DNA from: Coriobacteriales bacterium
GTDB taxonomy: Bacteria; Actinomycetota; Coriobacteriia; Coriobacteriales; UBA8131
Length of the DNA stretch: 8,050 nucleotides
Assembly (NCBI GenBank): GCA_031254255.1
Contig: JAIRUT010000148.1
Span: forward strand, 1 to 8,050
Direction: 5' to 3'
The notes under the pieces were generated by a model. It had not been told where the DNA came from. It ran no database searches and worked only from the letters and a program-made list of their open reading frames with translations. Within the stretch, counting starts at the first letter, position 1, and each line of letters begins with the position of its first letter. The translations under genes and the position numbers were made by a program. This document shows, piece after piece, positions 1,656-8,050 of this stretch.

Positions 1656-3302
1656 ATGAACAAGAGTAACAATGGGGTAGTTTTCACCAAGGAATGGATA
1701 GTCGAGCTGATGCTGGACTGCTGCGGATACACTTCTGACAAAAATCTTGCTGCCAGCCTAATTATTGAGCCTTCCTGTGGACAAGGTGCGTTCCTGATTC
1801 CCATTGTGAGAAGACTTATTGCTTCTACAAAAAAGTACAGCTGCAATATAGCTGATTTATACGACTCTATCAGAGCTTTTGAGTTGGATGAGCAGCATAT
1901 CAAAGAGTGCTGGACCATGTTATTCCAATTGCTGATCAATGAGGGTATAGACATTCAGACAGCAGAAAAACTTCTTGACTGTTGGCTTGTAAATAGTGAT
2001 TTTCTGCTTTGCGAGACATTCCGCAAAGCTGATTATGTCATTGGAAATCCACCTTACATCCGTGGTACAGAAATCGATCGTGTTTTGCGAGAGAAGTATA
2101 TCCGCGCCTGTAAAACTATGACAGCTGGTACAGACATATATGTTGGCTTCATCGAGACCGGGCTCAGATATCTGAAACCAAATGGAGTGCTTAATTTCAT
2201 TTGTGCAGACCGTTGGATGCATAACGCCTATGGTAAGAAGTTGAGAAAGCTGGTTTCTGAGAACTACTCAGTAGATATAATTTTGAAGATGCCCGATGTG
2301 GACGCGTTTAACACCGAAGTCTCCGCTTATCCGGCTATTATACAAATCAGCAAGACTCCTCAAAGCATTGCAGCCAGTGCAAGCATGACTGAATTATTTA
2401 CAGAGGAGTCAGTACCTGAGTTAATTGATTGGTTGCATAATGGTGCAGGCAATTCGTGTCTCAAACAGACCTTTTCGGGGTATTGGCACAAGTCATGGTT
2501 CAGGACAGATGATGTTTGGCCGGTAACCTCTCCAGATGTAATCACTTTGCTGGAAAAACTAAACTCCCAATATCATCCACTGCAAAACAAGACTACAGAA
2601 ACTCAAGTTGGAATAGGTGTTGCTACGGGCAGAGATGATGTTTTCATCCTACACGATCCCACGCTAGTTGAGAAATGCCTTTTACTTCCACTTGTAACAT
2701 CGGCGCAAACTCGAAGTGGAAGGATCGAGGGCGAAAAAGTCTGGCTTTTCAACCCTTGGGATAACTCTGGAAATCTGATTGATATTGAGCAATACCCACT
2801 GGCAAGGAAATATCTTGAAAGTCATCAAGAGTCTCTGCGCTCTCGTCATGTAGCAAAAAAAAGTTGCGAAAAAAGTTGGTACCGAACGATTGACAAAGTT
2901 TACCCCGGTTTGGTCAATATGCCCAAACTGCTCATTCAGGATATGAAATCATACATTCAGCCCATTTTGGATAAAGGAGATTACTATCCACATCATAATC
3001 TATATTGGATAACCTCTGAACAGTGGGATCTGGAAGTTCTTGGTGGTTTGCTAATTTCAGATGTAGCTAGAATGACAGTTGGAGCTTACTGTGTAAAAAT
3101 GCGCGGAGGAACACTCAGGCTTCAAGCACAATATCTTCGTAAAATCAGACTTCCCGAACCTAGTGCGATAGATTTCAAACTTCAAGCTGAACTTGTTGAT
3201 GCATTCAGAAACGATGATAGGAGTAAAGCATCAGAAGCCGCAATGCAAGCATACGACTTGAAGGGATTTCTGCATGAAAAACATAGAATATGCTCTTGTT
3301 AA
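1656..3302 (+). CDS. Adenine-N6 DNA methyltransferase, XhoI/PaeR7I type
   Basis: A 548-residue class I methyltransferase that should transfer a methyl group from S-adenosylmethionine to adenine N6. Visible motifs are the SAM-binding motif I (EPSCGQGAF, residues 38-46), the catalytic NPPY (131-134, within DYVIGNPPYIRG), and the GIGVATG segment (about 319-325) that opens the C-terminal target-recognition half in Eco57I/TaqI-like enzymes. The length agrees with M.PaeR7I-type enzymes of roughly 500-550 residues. The downstream endonuclease remnant is of the XhoI/PaeR7I family, which suggests the target CTCGAG with the adenine methylated; this specificity is inferred from the partner. The start is supported by AGGAG four bases upstream. 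The gene ends inside the endonuclease gene (29-base overlap), as expected for a co-transcribed pair. It is clearly more AT-rich than the nickel operon, in keeping with horizontal acquisition. No frame break or motif loss was seen, so it is probably active without its endonuclease. Confidence 0.9.
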   Translation: MNKSNNGVVFTKEWIVELMLDCCGYTSDKNLAASLIIEPSCGQGAFLIPIVRRLIASTKKYSCNIADLYDSIRAFELDEQHIKECWTMLFQLLINEGIDIQTAEKLLDCWLVNSDFLLCETFRKADYVIGNPPYIRGTEIDRVLREKYIRACKTMTAGTDIYVGFIETGLRYLKPNGVLNFICADRWMHNAYGKKLRKLVSENYSVDIILKMPDVDAFNTEVSAYPAIIQISKTPQSIAASASMTELFTEESVPELIDWLHNGAGNSCLKQTFSGYWHKSWFRTDDVWPVTSPDVITLLEKLNSQYHPLQNKTTETQVGIGVATGRDDVFILHDPTLVEKCLLLPLVTSAQTRSGRIEGEKVWLFNPWDNSGNLIDIEQYPLARKYLESHQESLRSRHVAKKSCEKSWYRTIDKVYPGLVNMPKLLIQDMKSYIQPILDKGDYYPHHNLYWITSEQWDLEVLGGLLISDVARMTVGAYCVKMRGGTLRLQAQYLRKIRLPEPSAIDFKLQAELVDAFRNDDRSKASEAAMQAYDLKGFLHEKHRICSC

Positions 3303-3808
3303 TATTATCGATTCAAGAAAAGCTGCCGCCGAAAAACAGAACGAATCAGGAACAACAGATACTGGATGTTGTCGTCCATGAGTCAAGACTGATTGCTGCT
3401 GTTGAACTTAAAACCATCTGGGGATCATATAGAAACAATTTGAACAATAGGGCTGAAGAAGCTATAGGCTCTGCGACGGATCTTGCGAAAGCGTTGCAAT
3501 CGGGGCTACTGGGTTCATCTTTTCCTTGGCTTGGCTATGTATTCATCATCAAAGATGATGCGGCAATCCACAGGACAAATCGTTTCAGGGAGCCACATTT
3601 TCCAGTCGACGAAGTGTTCAGGGACGCAACATATCTCAAACGGTTCGAGGTCTTATGCAGCAGATTGGTCACCGAGCGTTTGTACGATAATGTTTGGTAT
3701 GTTTGTCTAAATGACGATAGTGGAGAGTATTTAGAGCCAAATGCCGGGATGACATGGAGTAAGTTTGAAGCAGCAATAAGGGGTAAGGTACTTGAGGAGC
3801 TTGCATAA
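3274..3808 (+). pseudogene. XhoI/PaeR7I-family type II restriction endonuclease, internally deleted and frameshifted
   Basis: The true start is the ATG at 3274, with AAGGGA at 3261-3266 in front. It gives a 35-codon frame whose segment SRKAAAEKQNESGTTDTG (residues 14-31) resembles the XhoI/PaeR7I N-terminal region, then stops at 3379-3381. From about 3362 the family similarity resumes in another frame: the catalytic aspartate in DVVVHESR (from 3365), ELK at 3404-3412 (the E-x-K of the PD-(D/E)xK nuclease core), then NNLNNRAEEAIGSATDL, then EPHFPV and YLKRFEVLCSRLV, ending at 3808. About 31 plus 147 family residues remain, against about 245 in XhoI or PaeR7I. Some 65-70 codons are therefore missing at 3361-3366, and the deletion is not a multiple of three. 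The missing part should include the stretch between the N-terminal helix and the catalytic aspartate. The C-terminal half could be read from ATG 3290, but that start lacks a ribosome binding site and the product would be incomplete. An active enzyme is very unlikely. Confidence 0.85.
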
Positions 3809-4040: not shown

Positions 4041-4049
4041 TGCTATAGT
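4041..4049 (+). promoter_or_regulatory. Extended -10 promoter of the nickel operon
   Basis: TGCTATAGT is an extended -10 element: TG, one base, then TATAGT, which matches TATAAT at five of six positions (4044-4049). An extended -10 needs little -35 support, and none is obvious near 4021-4026. Transcription would start at about 4055-4057, inside the palindrome at 4048-4074. Repressor binding there would block polymerase directly. Confidence 0.6.
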
Positions 4050-4074
4050 GTTACGAAATAAAAATTCGTAACAC
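4048..4074. promoter_or_regulatory. NikR-type operator (GTGTTAC-N13-GTAACAC)
   Basis: A perfect inverted repeat: GTGTTACGAA (4048-4057), seven bases, TTCGTAACAC (4065-4074). The outer half-sites are GTGTTAC and GTAACAC separated by exactly 13 bases. That is the site I recall for Geobacter uraniireducens NikR and for predicted NikR regulons of Deltaproteobacteria; E. coli NikR instead uses GTATGA-N16-TCATAC. NikR is a nickel-dependent ribbon-helix-helix repressor. The position overlaps the -10 and the expected transcription start of an operon that looks like a nickel transporter on independent grounds, so site and genes support each other. The repressor gene is not in the window. Confidence 0.85.
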
Positions 4075-4118: not shown

Positions 4119-5825
4119 TTGTCTGTGGGCATTATCATCAAGAGGTCGGGGCTATCGCTTGAGTTTTCGGCAATGCGCTTCCTTGCCAGCATTCTTCTAA
4201 TAAGCGTGTCTCTCGTTTGCATATCCCTCGCATCTATCTCCCTTAGTTCTTGCTCGTCAAGCGACAGCGCAAAAGCCACGACCTCGGCATCGTCTCAGGT
4301 GACCGTGGTCATGGATACGGCCAGCGAGCCTGCGGCGGGCTTTGATCCCATGGTCAATTGGGGCACCGGCGAGCATGTCCATGAGCCTCTGATCCAAAGC
4401 ACGCTGATCACCACCGACACCGACATGAACTTCGTCAATGACCTGGCCACTAGCTATGAATGTAGTGCTGATGGCCTGCAGTGGACTTTCACAATCCGCA
4501 ATGATGTCAAGTTCACCGACGGTGTACCGCTAACAGCCAAGGATGTCGCCTTCACCATTAATGGCATTATTGCCTCCGCGGCATCTGAAACCGACCTGAG
4601 TTCGGTGGAAAAAGCTGAGGCGCTGGATGACACGACAGTTGTCATCACCATGAAGAAGCCGAACAATGCCCTTCTCTATACCTTGGCGGTGATCGGTATC
4701 GTGCCTGAACATGCCTACGGACCGGACTACGGCGAGCATCCGATCGGTAGCGGCCGCTACATGCTGGAACAGTGGGATCGCGGGCAGCAGGTGATCCTTG
4801 TAGCTAATCCGGACTACTATGGCGAGGCACCCAAGATGCAGCGCGTCGTCATTGCCTTCATGGGGGAAGACGCGGCCCTCGCAGCAGCGAAATCCGGGCA
4901 GGCCGACATCGTCTACACTTCGGCTACCTACAGCAACCAGCAGATCAAAGGCTACAGCCTGCTTGCCGCCAAGTCGGTGGACAGCAGGGGAATCTCACTC
5001 CCGACCACACTGCCGGGTGGCACTATCACCAACAACAGCGGCACGGAATATGCTGTGGGCAATGCCGTGACCAGCGACATCGCAATCCGGCAGGCGATCA
5101 ACCTGGCAATCGACCGTGAGAATATGATCGACAACGTACTTAATGGCTACGGCTCCGTGGCCTACAGCGTCTGCGACGGTATGCCCTGGGCCTCTGCGGA
5201 TATGAAAGTCGGGCTGGACCGGGACAAAGCGCGCGTTGTTCTGGAAGATGCCGGGTGGTCACTCGGCGCTGATGTCATTTATACAAAAGATGGACTTCGG
5301 GCTTCTTTCGATCTCTGGTATCCGTCCTCTGATTCGGTCAGGCAGGCCTTGGCCAACGAGTTCTCCAACCAGATGAAGGAAATCGGCCTTGAGGTCGTGC
5401 CCCGGGGCGGCAGTTGGGACGACATCTATCCGAACTCCTATTCCAGCCCGGTGCTCTGGGGCTGGGGATCAAACTCGCCTTCTGAGCTGTATTCCCTTTA
5501 CTACTCCAGTGGTACCAGCAACTTCGCGCAGTATCTGAGCAGCAGTATTGATGGCTATTTGGACGCAGCCTTGGCAACGCCGGATATCGCTGATTCCTAT
5601 GTGCTCTGGCAAAAAGCGCAGTGGGATGGCAGCACTGGCGTGGCTCCGCAGGGAGCAGCCACTTGGGCGTGGCTGGTCTCGGTCGACCATCTCTACTTTT
5701 ACAATGACAACTTGGTTGTGGCCAAGCAGAAACTGCATCCACACGGATACGGCTGGTCTTTGCTAAACAATGTTGATCAGTGGACTTGGCGAAATGGTGA
5801 TAATGCTGATGGAGCCAGCGAGTGA
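4119..5825 (+). CDS. nikA: Nickel ABC transporter substrate-binding lipoprotein (NikA-like, SBP_bac_5)
   Basis: This is the extracytoplasmic receptor of the transporter, expected to capture nickel (probably as a small-molecule chelate) and deliver it to NikBC. The 568-residue product starts with a signal peptide (hydrophobic core about residues 20-42) ending in the lipobox LSSC, so Cys45 should be lipidated and anchor the protein outside the membrane. Family 5 solute-binding landmarks follow: LATSYECSADGLQWTFTIR (109-127), FTDGVPLTAKDVAFT (132-146), GSGRYMLEQW (210-219), IRQAINLAIDR (323-333). Histidines in GEHVHEP (84-90) and HPHG (540-543) are possible metal or chelate ligands, but this is a guess. 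The TTG start is preferred because of its ribosome binding site; ATG 4173 (Met19) would give a shorter but still workable signal peptide. Family 5 also contains oligopeptide receptors. The nickel assignment rests mainly on the upstream NikR-type site, the relatives I recall ending in HPHG, and the His-rich gene downstream. Confidence 0.85.
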   Translation: MSVGIIIKRSGLSLEFSAMRFLASILLISVSLVCISLASISLSSCSSSDSAKATTSASSQVTVVMDTASEPAAGFDPMVNWGTGEHVHEPLIQSTLITTDTDMNFVNDLATSYECSADGLQWTFTIRNDVKFTDGVPLTAKDVAFTINGIIASAASETDLSSVEKAEALDDTTVVITMKKPNNALLYTLAVIGIVPEHAYGPDYGEHPIGSGRYMLEQWDRGQQVILVANPDYYGEAPKMQRVVIAFMGEDAALAAAKSGQADIVYTSATYSNQQIKGYSLLAAKSVDSRGISLPTTLPGGTITNNSGTEYAVGNAVTSDIAIRQAINLAIDRENMIDNVLNGYGSVAYSVCDGMPWASADMKVGLDRDKARVVLEDAGWSLGADVIYTKDGLRASFDLWYPSSDSVRQALANEFSNQMKEIGLEVVPRGGSWDDIYPNSYSSPVLWGWGSNSPSELYSLYYSSGTSNFAQYLSSSIDGYLDAALATPDIADSYVLWQKAQWDGSTGVAPQGAATWAWLVSVDHLYFYNDNLVVAKQKLHPHGYGWSLLNNVDQWTWRNGDNADGASE

Positions 5826-5887: not shown

Positions 5888-6955
5888 TTGATACGCTTCA
5901 TTACAAACAACATCGCTAAGTGCCTGCTTCTGCTGGTCGCGATAAGCATCATTGTCTTTATTCTCGTCAGCGTCTCACCAGTGGATCCGGTTCAAGCTAA
6001 TGCCGGACAGACCGCTTACTTGAACATGAGCGAAGCCAAACGCGCTCAACTGGCCGAATACTGGGGTGTGAACACGCCCATCTGGGAGCGTTATGCAAAT
6101 TGGGCGAAAGATTTCATCCATGGCGACATGGGCACATCGCTCAGATACAATGCCCCGGTCAGTGAGGTTATCGCTACAAGAGCCTTGAACTCCCTGGCCC
6201 TGATGGCCTCGGCATGGGTAATCAGCGGCCTGCTCGGCTTTATTTCCGGCATTGCAGCCGGCATGAACCGCGGTCGCTTGATTGACAAGCTGGTCAAGGG
6301 TTACTGTTTCGTGCTTGCCTCGTCACCGACTTTTTGGGTTGCTTTGATATTCCTGATGATTTTCTCTGTATCCTTGGACTGGTTTCCCATTGGATTCTCC
6401 GTGCCGCTGGGAGTGTCAGCCGCCAATGTCACCATCTTTGATCACCTCCGGCACCTGATCCTGCCAGCAATCACGCTTTCTGTAGTGGGCGTGGCCAACA
6501 TCGCCTTGCACACCCGCGAAAAGACCATCGATGTGATCGAAAGCGACTACTTCCGCTTTGCCTTGGCTCGGGGGGAAAGGCCCTGGCGAGCACTCAGGAA
6601 GCACGGGCTGCGCAACCTGATGATGCCGGCCCTAACCCTTCAGTTTGCCGCAATCGCTGAGATATTTGGAGGAGCGGTGCTGGTGGAACAGGTATTCTCC
6701 TATCCCGGCCTCGGCCAAGCGGCAGTGACAGCCGGGCTTGGGGGAGACGTGGCCTTGCTCGCTGGTATCGCCGTGATATCGGCCTTGTTCGTGTTCACCG
6801 GAAACCTCATCGCCAACATCCTTTACGGTGTGGTCGACCCACGCATTCGCGGGGCGCGAAAGATGTTGGGAGCAAGTGGAGCTGTGGGTGCTGCTAGAGA
6901 TACTGGGGATACCGGGAGTACCGATGGCATAGATAAGGAGCAGGCAGGTGGATAA
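5888..6955 (+). CDS. nikB: Nickel ABC transporter permease NikB
   Basis: A 355-residue inner-membrane permease of the DppB/OppB/NikB family (BPD_transp_1), one of two channel subunits. Features in order: an N-terminal membrane helix (about residues 11-30) followed by SPVDPVQANAGQ, as usual in this family; an extracytoplasmic stretch with WGVNTPIWERYANW and GDMGTSLRYNAPV; further helices near 103-125, 139-162, 190-205 and 250-268; the EAA-like cytoplasmic loop that contacts the ATPase (about 226-245, ALARGERPWRALRKHGL); the hallmark VEQVFSYPGLGQA (266-278); and the terminal DPRIRG (317-322). The start is TTG 5888, eight bases after AAGGA (5875-5879); no ATG serves better. An unusual Gly/Ala/Asp/Thr-rich tail of about 33 residues follows DPRIRG and ends in the overlap with nikC, suggesting translational coupling. 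Confidence 0.9.
   Translation: MIRFITNNIAKCLLLLVAISIIVFILVSVSPVDPVQANAGQTAYLNMSEAKRAQLAEYWGVNTPIWERYANWAKDFIHGDMGTSLRYNAPVSEVIATRALNSLALMASAWVISGLLGFISGIAAGMNRGRLIDKLVKGYCFVLASSPTFWVALIFLMIFSVSLDWFPIGFSVPLGVSAANVTIFDHLRHLILPAITLSVVGVANIALHTREKTIDVIESDYFRFALARGERPWRALRKHGLRNLMMPALTLQFAAIAEIFGGAVLVEQVFSYPGLGQAAVTAGLGGDVALLAGIAVISALFVFTGNLIANILYGVVDPRIRGARKMLGASGAVGAARDTGDTGSTDGIDKEQAGG
6935..6940 (+). promoter_or_regulatory. Ribosome binding site of nikC inside nikB
   Basis: AAGGAG lies seven bases before GTG 6948 and within the last codons of nikB. It fixes GTG 6948 as the nikC start and explains the 8-base overlap of the two genes. Confidence 0.75.
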
Positions 6956-7802
6956 GGTCCTGTTCCATGCAGCTAAAATGCGGCTCTTTAACAACCGCTT
7001 GCAAACCATGATCATCATGATGGTTGCCTTGGCCATCTTGGCCGCCGTTGTCATCAGTGGCATGCTGGTGATGGGCAATGCCCAAACCACCGATTTTGCG
7101 AGTAAGAATCTCGCCCCCAGTTTCGCGCACCCCTTCGGCACCGACTGGATGGGTCGCGACATGTTCATCAGGACTCTCTCCGGGCTGGCCATGAGCATGT
7201 TTGTCGGTCTGCTGGCAGCAACAGTGTCCTCCCTGATTGCGGTCGGGCTGGGCATGGCTGCTGCACTCGGCGGCAAACGGATGGATGCCGTGATCACTTG
7301 GCTCATCGACCTCTTAATGGGTCTTCCTCACATCATCCTGCTTATACTTATCGCCTTTGCCATTGGTAAAGGCTTTTGGGGCGTAACCATTGGTGTTGCT
7401 GTAACGCACTGGCCAAACCTCGCCCGTGTGATCCGCGCCGAGGTTTTGCAATGCAAACAAAGCAACTACATTGCCCATGCCGAAAAACTGGGAACCTCCA
7501 AGCTAAAGATCGCCTGGCGCCACATCACTCCCTATATCATTCCGCAGCTATTAGTCGGATTCGTGCTGCTATTTCCACATGCCATACTCCACGAAGCAGC
7601 AATAACCTTTCTCGGCTTTGGCCTGCCACCAGAACAGCCCGCCATCGGAATCATCCTGAGCGAGGCCATGGGACACCTCTCCACTGGCATGTGGTGGCTC
7701 GCGCTTTTCCCAGGTATCGCACTTGTCGCCATTGTATTGCTTTTTGATCTCGCCGGATCAAGCCTGCGTAGGCTCATCGACCCCCACAGGTCGCAGGACT
7801 AG
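6948..7802 (+). CDS. nikC: Nickel ABC transporter permease NikC
   Basis: A 284-residue second channel subunit, of the DppC/OppC/NikC family. Landmarks in order: a first membrane helix (about residues 20-42); HPFGTDWMGRDMFIR (61-75), the GTDxxGRD signature of this family; helices near 78-106 and 127-153; THWPNLARVIRAEVL (153-167); the EAA-like loop AEKLGTSKLKIAWRHITP (178-195), which docks with the ATPase; FLGFGLPP (221-228); and the closing LIDPH (276-280). The paired histidine and tryptophan of THWP are, from memory, common in nickel-type NikC proteins. The GTG start is backed by AAGGAG at 6935-6940, and the first bases overlap the nikB stop. The length is normal for the family and no defect was seen. 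It should pair with NikB in the cytoplasmic membrane. Confidence 0.9.
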   Translation: MDKVLFHAAKMRLFNNRLQTMIIMMVALAILAAVVISGMLVMGNAQTTDFASKNLAPSFAHPFGTDWMGRDMFIRTLSGLAMSMFVGLLAATVSSLIAVGLGMAAALGGKRMDAVITWLIDLLMGLPHIILLILIAFAIGKGFWGVTIGVAVTHWPNLARVIRAEVLQCKQSNYIAHAEKLGTSKLKIAWRHITPYIIPQLLVGFVLLFPHAILHEAAITFLGFGLPPEQPAIGIILSEAMGHLSTGMWWLALFPGIALVAIVLLFDLAGSSLRRLIDPHRSQD

Positions 7803-7812
7803 AGGTCGGGAC

Positions 7813-8050
7813 ATGAACAAGCAAAATGGGAAAACTGCGGATGCGGGCAGAGAGAAGAAGGCCGTGGGGTTTGGCACTGATGAAGAGCATACTCACGATG
7901 AAGGGCACGCCGAGGACTACAAGCAGCATATCCATACGGATCATACCCATGCTCAATACGATAGGCACACCATAGATCCACCACACTACCACGCCCACGA
8001 CGATGGGCAAATTTATGGGCACACCACGGGAGAGCACCATGATCCCCGTG
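7813..8050 (+). CDS. Start of a His-rich protein, probably the operon's ATPase or another nickel-handling protein (cut by the window)
   Basis: The frame opens with ATG 7813, six bases after GAGGT (7802-7806), and runs off the window after 79 complete codons. Residues 1-25 are polar and charged. Residues 26-76 hold 14 histidines, with HTH, HIH, HTDHTH, HYHAH and HH, interspersed with many Asp and Glu, so this is almost certainly a metal-binding segment. There is no signal peptide or membrane helix so far, which points to the cytoplasm. Ten bases separate it from the nikC stop, and the operon still lacks its ATP-binding subunit. A NikD/NikE ATPase with an N-terminal His-rich extension is therefore the leading inference. 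No Walker motif is reached inside the window. Alternatives are a HypB- or CobW-like GTPase or a small Hpn-like nickel-storage protein. The metal-binding character is well supported; the enzyme identity is not. Confidence 0.7.
   Translation, partial: MNKQNGKTADAGREKKAVGFGTDEEHTHDEGHAEDYKQHIHTDHTHAQYDRHTIDPPHYHAHDDGQIYGHTTGEHHDPR

Follow-up and report, generated by a model that had tools for sequence, protein, structure and literature searches.

Gene organisation of the locus

The window analysed, 8,050 bases in length, was a complete contig (C37) of a fragmentary genome assembly (849,686 bases in 163 contigs, 51% complete). Because the window is the whole contig, the open reading frame starting at position 7813 runs off the assembly edge at position 8050. 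Genes for a substrate-binding protein, two permeases and a histidine-rich reading frame followed one another in this order (Table 1). The ATG of the histidine-rich frame lay 10 bases past the nikC stop codon and was preceded by AGAGG. Two adjacent ATPase genes were located on contig C15 of the window's genome. A substrate-binding protein, two permeases and two ATPases constitute a NikABCDE/YntABCDE-type set, which is contiguous in relatives, where NikE was read in 17 of 31 rows, and distributed over two contigs here; we infer that the parts on the window and on C15 belong to one operon.

Table 1. Features of the importer locus in the window (contig C37).
Feature	Position	Strand	Assignment
NikR-type operator GTGTTAC-N13-GTAACAC	4048..4074	.	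Exact match, NikR consensus
Substrate-binding protein (family 5), YntA-like	4119..5825	+	Pfam SBP_bac_5, 264 bits
NikB-like permease	5888..6955	+	Pfam BPD_transp_1; Opp4B, Opp2B and nikB models below cut-off
NikC-like permease	6948..7802	+	Pfam BPD_transp_1; Opp4C, Opp2C and nikC models below cut-off
Likely ribosome-binding site AGAGG	7801..7805	+	Read from sequence
His-rich N-terminal head of NikD-type ATPase, cut at contig end	7813..8050	+	Remainder very probably on C15 (L125, minus strand from contig end)

None of the components reached the NCBIfam equivalog cut-offs: nikA scored 150.5 bits (cut-off 393), nikB 177.3 (447), nikC 161.7 (358.45) and, for the ATPase on C15, nikD 159.3 (318.7). 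Since all nik scores were below cut-off, we refer to a Ynt-like importer of nickel type and not to a NikABCDE equivalog.

Translation of 7813-8049 yielded 79 residues with 14 histidines, all within residues 26-76, and 16 Asp/Glu, which bears out the preliminary description of fourteen histidines in 51 residues interspersed with acidic ones. At least 14 histidines in 79 residues had a probability of 4e-10, with the four other open reading frames of the window as the reference (34 His in 1,755 residues). Eight of the histidine codons were CAC and six were CAT.

Beside the importer, a gene for an Eco57I-type N6-adenine methylase (1656-3302) overlapped a gene encoding 172 amino acids (3290-3808); the two could form a restriction-modification pair. 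A VOC-family protein resembling YjdN, scoring below the cut-off, was encoded at 943-1368. At the Rfam gathering threshold no match was found in the window, and eight relatives gave three tRNAs only.

A fixed histidine pattern in relatives

Loci were fetched with the NikC sequence of the window, 80 of them from named genomes, together with matches from 26 of 33 genomes of the family. In the Coriobacteriia orthologues that make up most of one clade, nikC was followed by a gene in which a His-rich head and an ABC ATPase form one protein. With 30 loci lined up at ABC strand 1 and numbered backwards from it, histidine occupied positions -17, -16, -14, -12, -6 and -1 in all 30, and positions -23 and -2 in 29 each. 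The other conserved positions were Ser -8 (30 loci) and Gly -3 (29 loci). Every fixed histidine column used both CAT and CAC, and most of the residues between these columns varied. No linker separated the eight-histidine pattern from the ABC core.

In a class-wide draw of 296 genomes, 93 had a match to the ATPase at E 1e-60, and 90 of these genomes belong to the same taxonomic order as the window. Heads were read in 92 genomes, a fragment in G029 being left out. The pattern HHxHxHx5Hx3H was present in 77 of them and present with one position changed in six (five at -2, one at -17); it was missing in eight, and the remaining one was the window's own, cut head. Outside the searched pattern, the 77 holders had histidine at -23 in 76 cases and at -1 in all 77. 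Four of the eight genomes lacking the pattern had distant importers (L245-L248; 46-52% identical to the query, three from other orders). The other four had nearer orthologues (L240, L244, L249 and L250; 55-63% identical), in which the absence is read as loss.

The head was found on NikD; NikE had none in the 17 of 31 rows with a readable LSGGE frame, the other 14 being unreadable. Among the best 120 of 5,116 homologues of the ATPase on C15, a set of the most similar sequences and not a fair sample, 114 heads could be parsed, and all contained at least nine histidines (median 11); the six unparsed cases included the fragment of the window genome itself. A plasmid search with P0010 returned six records, all with less than 60% identity, and the five displayed began to match at residue 27-31, where the head is largely or wholly over. 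Scanning whole genomes for HHxHxH[AG] at the DNA level lacked the specificity to be useful. One locus (L035, 5373-7334) contained a 654-codon frame with both LSGGM and LSGGE, in which NikD and NikE are seemingly fused and the His head is retained.

The probable remainder of the gene on contig C15

The window's genome was searched with the Anaerotardibacter muris ATPase (L033) as the query. A single clear orthologue, sharing 64% identity, lay at the extreme end of contig C15 (5,220 bases). Its open frame of 282 codons starts QSLDSRHDSGHHLLQIAELSI, contains a Walker A motif and LSGGM, and matched Pfam ABC_tran (4.7e-27). A NikE-like ATPase of 203 residues followed downstream. Of the NCBIfam models, nikD fitted the former ATPase best and a NikE model the latter, neither score reaching its cut-off. 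The 282-codon frame keeps Ser -8, His -6, Gly -3, His -2 and His -1; at the contig edge it has Gln at -12, a position otherwise invariantly histidine, and Ser at -11. If C37 and C15 abut, the reading frame is preserved, as would happen by chance in one case in three; a gap between them is possible.

On the strength of gene order, of reading frame and of the partial motif that C15 retains, we regard the window frame and the C15 ATPase as one gene, the rest of which very probably starts at the C15 edge as a NikD-type ABC ATPase. It is very improbable that the two are separate genes and that the window encodes a short His-rich protein of its own: the contig ends share zero bases and the fixed motif is complete on neither, but both breaks fall where relatives have one and the same operon gene, C15 opens in frame inside the motif (SRHxxGHHLLQ), and the runner-up by E-value has 31% identity, albeit in an assembly that covers only half of the genome. 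The position assigned to the ATPase in the preliminary description is thus very probably occupied by an ABC ATPase. The HypB or CobW GTPase that it had named as the alternative finds no counterpart, as the C15 half is ABC_tran with no such GTPase domain and HypB is a separate gene (G000:C130); an oligopeptide/dipeptide transporter C-terminal domain, which it had suggested looking for, gave no Pfam match in the C15 half or in L033. A gene for a DUF3048 protein (L112, 3-821) is convergent to both ATPase genes on C15.

The fixed pattern was absent from the 79 visible residues of the window, where the best score was reached by 1,595 of 5,000 shuffles; the idea that the head in the window repeats the fixed motif in tandem was rejected on the same count. 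These residues would represent the variable outer part of the head, and the fixed pattern of the relatives would span the contig break. The window genome's own fixed motif, cut by the break, seems to deviate from that of the relatives; either its head deviates or the contig edge may be poorly assembled.

In the AlphaFold2 model the ABC fold was confident (mean pLDDT 88.1), with DppD and OppD as the nearest structures, and the head was unordered and of low confidence (block means 39, 49 and 53). Among the 60 of 562 matches to solved structures that were examined, none covered the head, the best stretch beginning at a residue numbered at least 50.

Phylogeny and the C-terminal Cys tail

In a tree of 90 rows built from NikC and the NikD core, a quick reconstruction with long-branch warnings, 31 of the 32 His rows, including the window, formed a clade (SH-aLRT 100), and L019 was placed separately; starred branches leave a single origin of the His heads possible. 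The tree omits L013, L020, L024, L044 and L050 (no readable Walker A), six duplicates and eight of 11 paralogue rows. One row of the clade, L053, derives from a metagenome-assembled genome titled Propionibacterium. Outside the clade, the 55 fetched orthologues had zero to two histidines before the core, L019 excepted, and a His head was absent from the ATPase start in the fetched Firmicutes orthologues and in paralogous importers of the same family. Conservation of the histidine segment among orthologues, raised in the preliminary description, thus holds within the order, whereas the fetched orthologues outside it (mostly Firmicutes) showed no enrichment.

The clade also differed at the other end of the protein. 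A C-terminal Cys tail was present in 0 of 27 His-clade sequences and in 47 of 54 other orthologues, frames left open by contig ends and L019 not being counted. In L019 (G010), whose NikD is Firmicutes-like, a Cys tail and a differently spaced His-rich head occur together, a combination that hints at a second, independent origin of the head. Clade-specific columns in the ATPase core contained no histidine; the filter retained one column of Met, two of Asp and one of Glu.

Evidence for nickel as the substrate

The operator-like sequence before the operon was a perfect match to the NikR consensus that a passage of PMC545781 gives for delta-proteobacteria, and it was found in 0 of 200 shuffles. 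Allowing at most one mismatch, 29 such sites were present in 23 of the 33 family genomes; a backward control pattern gave eight, one each in eight genomes. A site lay 2.7-3.1 kb before nikC in 13 of the 16 family genomes with a nikC orthologue (at least 53% identity). Of the exceptions, G018 and G019 had a NikR-type site on another contig and G010 had none. In the product of the genome's own NikR gene (C118), a ribbon-helix-helix and the nickel domain NikR_C (103.8 bits, cut-off 22) both exceeded their Pfam thresholds; with the NCBIfam nikR model the product scored 112.5 bits (cut-off 175.45). Matches to this model, all below cut-off, were found in 26 of the 33 family genomes.

For the substrate-binding protein, the best solved matches were 3ry3, a putative solute-binding protein (E 1e-105), and 4ofl, the nickel-binding YntA (E 2.4e-105). 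YntABCDE is named as a distant nickel importer in a passage of PMC2667541. The NikR operator, the NikR gene and the YntA-like binding protein support the prediction that the operon encodes a nickel importer, and the operator upholds the earlier proposal that the placement of the gene ties it to nickel handling.

In G004, a second perfect NikR-type site (C21:15807-15833, L165) was located about 2 kb before a full-length gene for the large subunit of a [NiFe] hydrogenase.

Predicted role of the histidine-rich head

Our tentative preference, held at somewhat less than an even chance, is that the head binds cytoplasmic nickel and brakes further import by the NikD-type ATPase. Its outer, variable part would collect Ni(II) leaving the permease; the inner, fixed cluster would bind Ni(II) and shift the ATP-binding domain, and ATP hydrolysis would slow when cytoplasmic nickel is plentiful (trans-inhibition). 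Such a brake would add a fast layer of control beneath the slower one expected from NikR, which is predicted to repress this operon. It is preferred, with capture and hand-off of nickel close behind, because the fixed spacing and the direct contact with the ABC core suggest a defined site and not a loose store, and because substrate-sensing ATPase domains stop import in MetNI and ModABC. In these two importers, as described in part of PMC10710835, the sensors are fused to the ATPase, and the head would likewise put a sensor of the imported substrate there. The known regulatory domains are C-terminal, however, whereas the head is a short N-terminal histidine segment for which inhibition is a prediction. 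Further points against the brake are the four orthologues without the pattern, the Gln at -12 on C15, the visible residues without a fixed pattern, the low-confidence, unordered head in the AlphaFold2 model and the unmet NCBIfam nik cut-offs.

It is possible, if doubtful, that the head is instead a tethered nickel buffer at the cytoplasmic exit, passing Ni(II) to HypA/HypB for [NiFe] hydrogenase. At the importer it would then play the part ascribed to the His-rich tail of rhizobial HypB; according to a passage of PMC7055735, that tail is thought to store nickel and such tails bind several Ni(II). HypB was present in 29 of the 33 family genomes, and all 33 had [NiFe]-hydrogenase family matches, with only one short, weak match in G008. 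A His-rich tail was found in none of the 30 HypB genes read, out of 31 above cut-off (at most three His per 20 residues), so among the importer and HypB genes read in this nickel pathway, the sole His-rich segment found is that on the importer ATPase.

A full-length hydrogenase match was missing in two of the four motif losses and in eight of 42 motif holders, a difference in the direction expected of hand-off but within chance (Fisher P = 0.2). HypB was present in 50 of the 50 genomes checked for motif loss, and an association of motif loss with loss of hydrogenase or HypB was thus unsupported. A buffer would have no need of fixed spacing or of linker-free contact with the ABC core, and eight genomes hold the motif without a full-length hydrogenase match. 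Two of the losses retain full-length [NiFe] hydrogenase and HypB, which also indicates that the pattern is not indispensable.

An improbable third reading is that the cluster permanently holds zinc or nickel and fixes NikD to its partner or to the permease, with no sensing. Eight fixed histidines immediately before strand 1 would suit such a site and, given the missing Cys tail in the His clade, one metal site may have replaced another; on the other hand, the outer part is variable yet His-bearing, and four losses are tolerated.

Comparison with known systems

The locus resembles YntABCDE and NikABCDE in its family-5 substrate-binding protein, two permeases, NikD- and NikE-type ATPases and NikR-type operator. 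It differs in that all parts fall below the NCBIfam nik cut-offs and in the His-rich head on NikD, which the fetched orthologues outside the clade lack, L019 excepted. His-rich segments in the nickel pathway are shared with the tails of HypB, UreE and SlyD and with Hpn. In those proteins the histidines are irregularly spaced. The carriers are soluble proteins, as a passage of PMC7055735 indicates for HypB and UreE, whereas here a transporter ATPase carries histidines at fixed intervals. If the proposed brake acts on the importer protein itself, it has a counterpart in the control of the NiuBDE nickel transporter by SlyD; there a separate chaperone touches the permease, whereas here the head is fused. 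That case is presented, in part of PMC7840056, as an exception among bacterial metal importers, whose regulation had long been described as mainly transcriptional. In the titles, abstract openings and selected passages of the open-licence literature covered, we found no His-rich NikD and no His-rich trans-inhibited importer.

If real, a conserved fixed-spacing histidine site on the ATPase would allow the control of a nickel importer at the protein level to be probed directly. It would also provide a simple sequence marker across an order in which most of the checked genomes have a [NiFe] hydrogenase. A more far-reaching reading, which we consider unlikely, is that a nickel valve became part of the importer motor in one order of Coriobacteriia: an N-terminal eight-histidine module would have replaced the C-terminal Cys tail, sensing cytoplasmic nickel and shutting the transporter. 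The importer would then be the first for nickel to carry a fused brake that senses its substrate, and the L019 lineage may have invented the device again.

The NikC proteins of the His clade have a short N-terminal stretch of their own (window positions 6948-7000). A histidine is conserved there in 25 of 29 aligned rows, and the alignment is gapped at this place in 48 of the 55 rows outside the clade. Lying near the head, this histidine might serve as an additional ligand.
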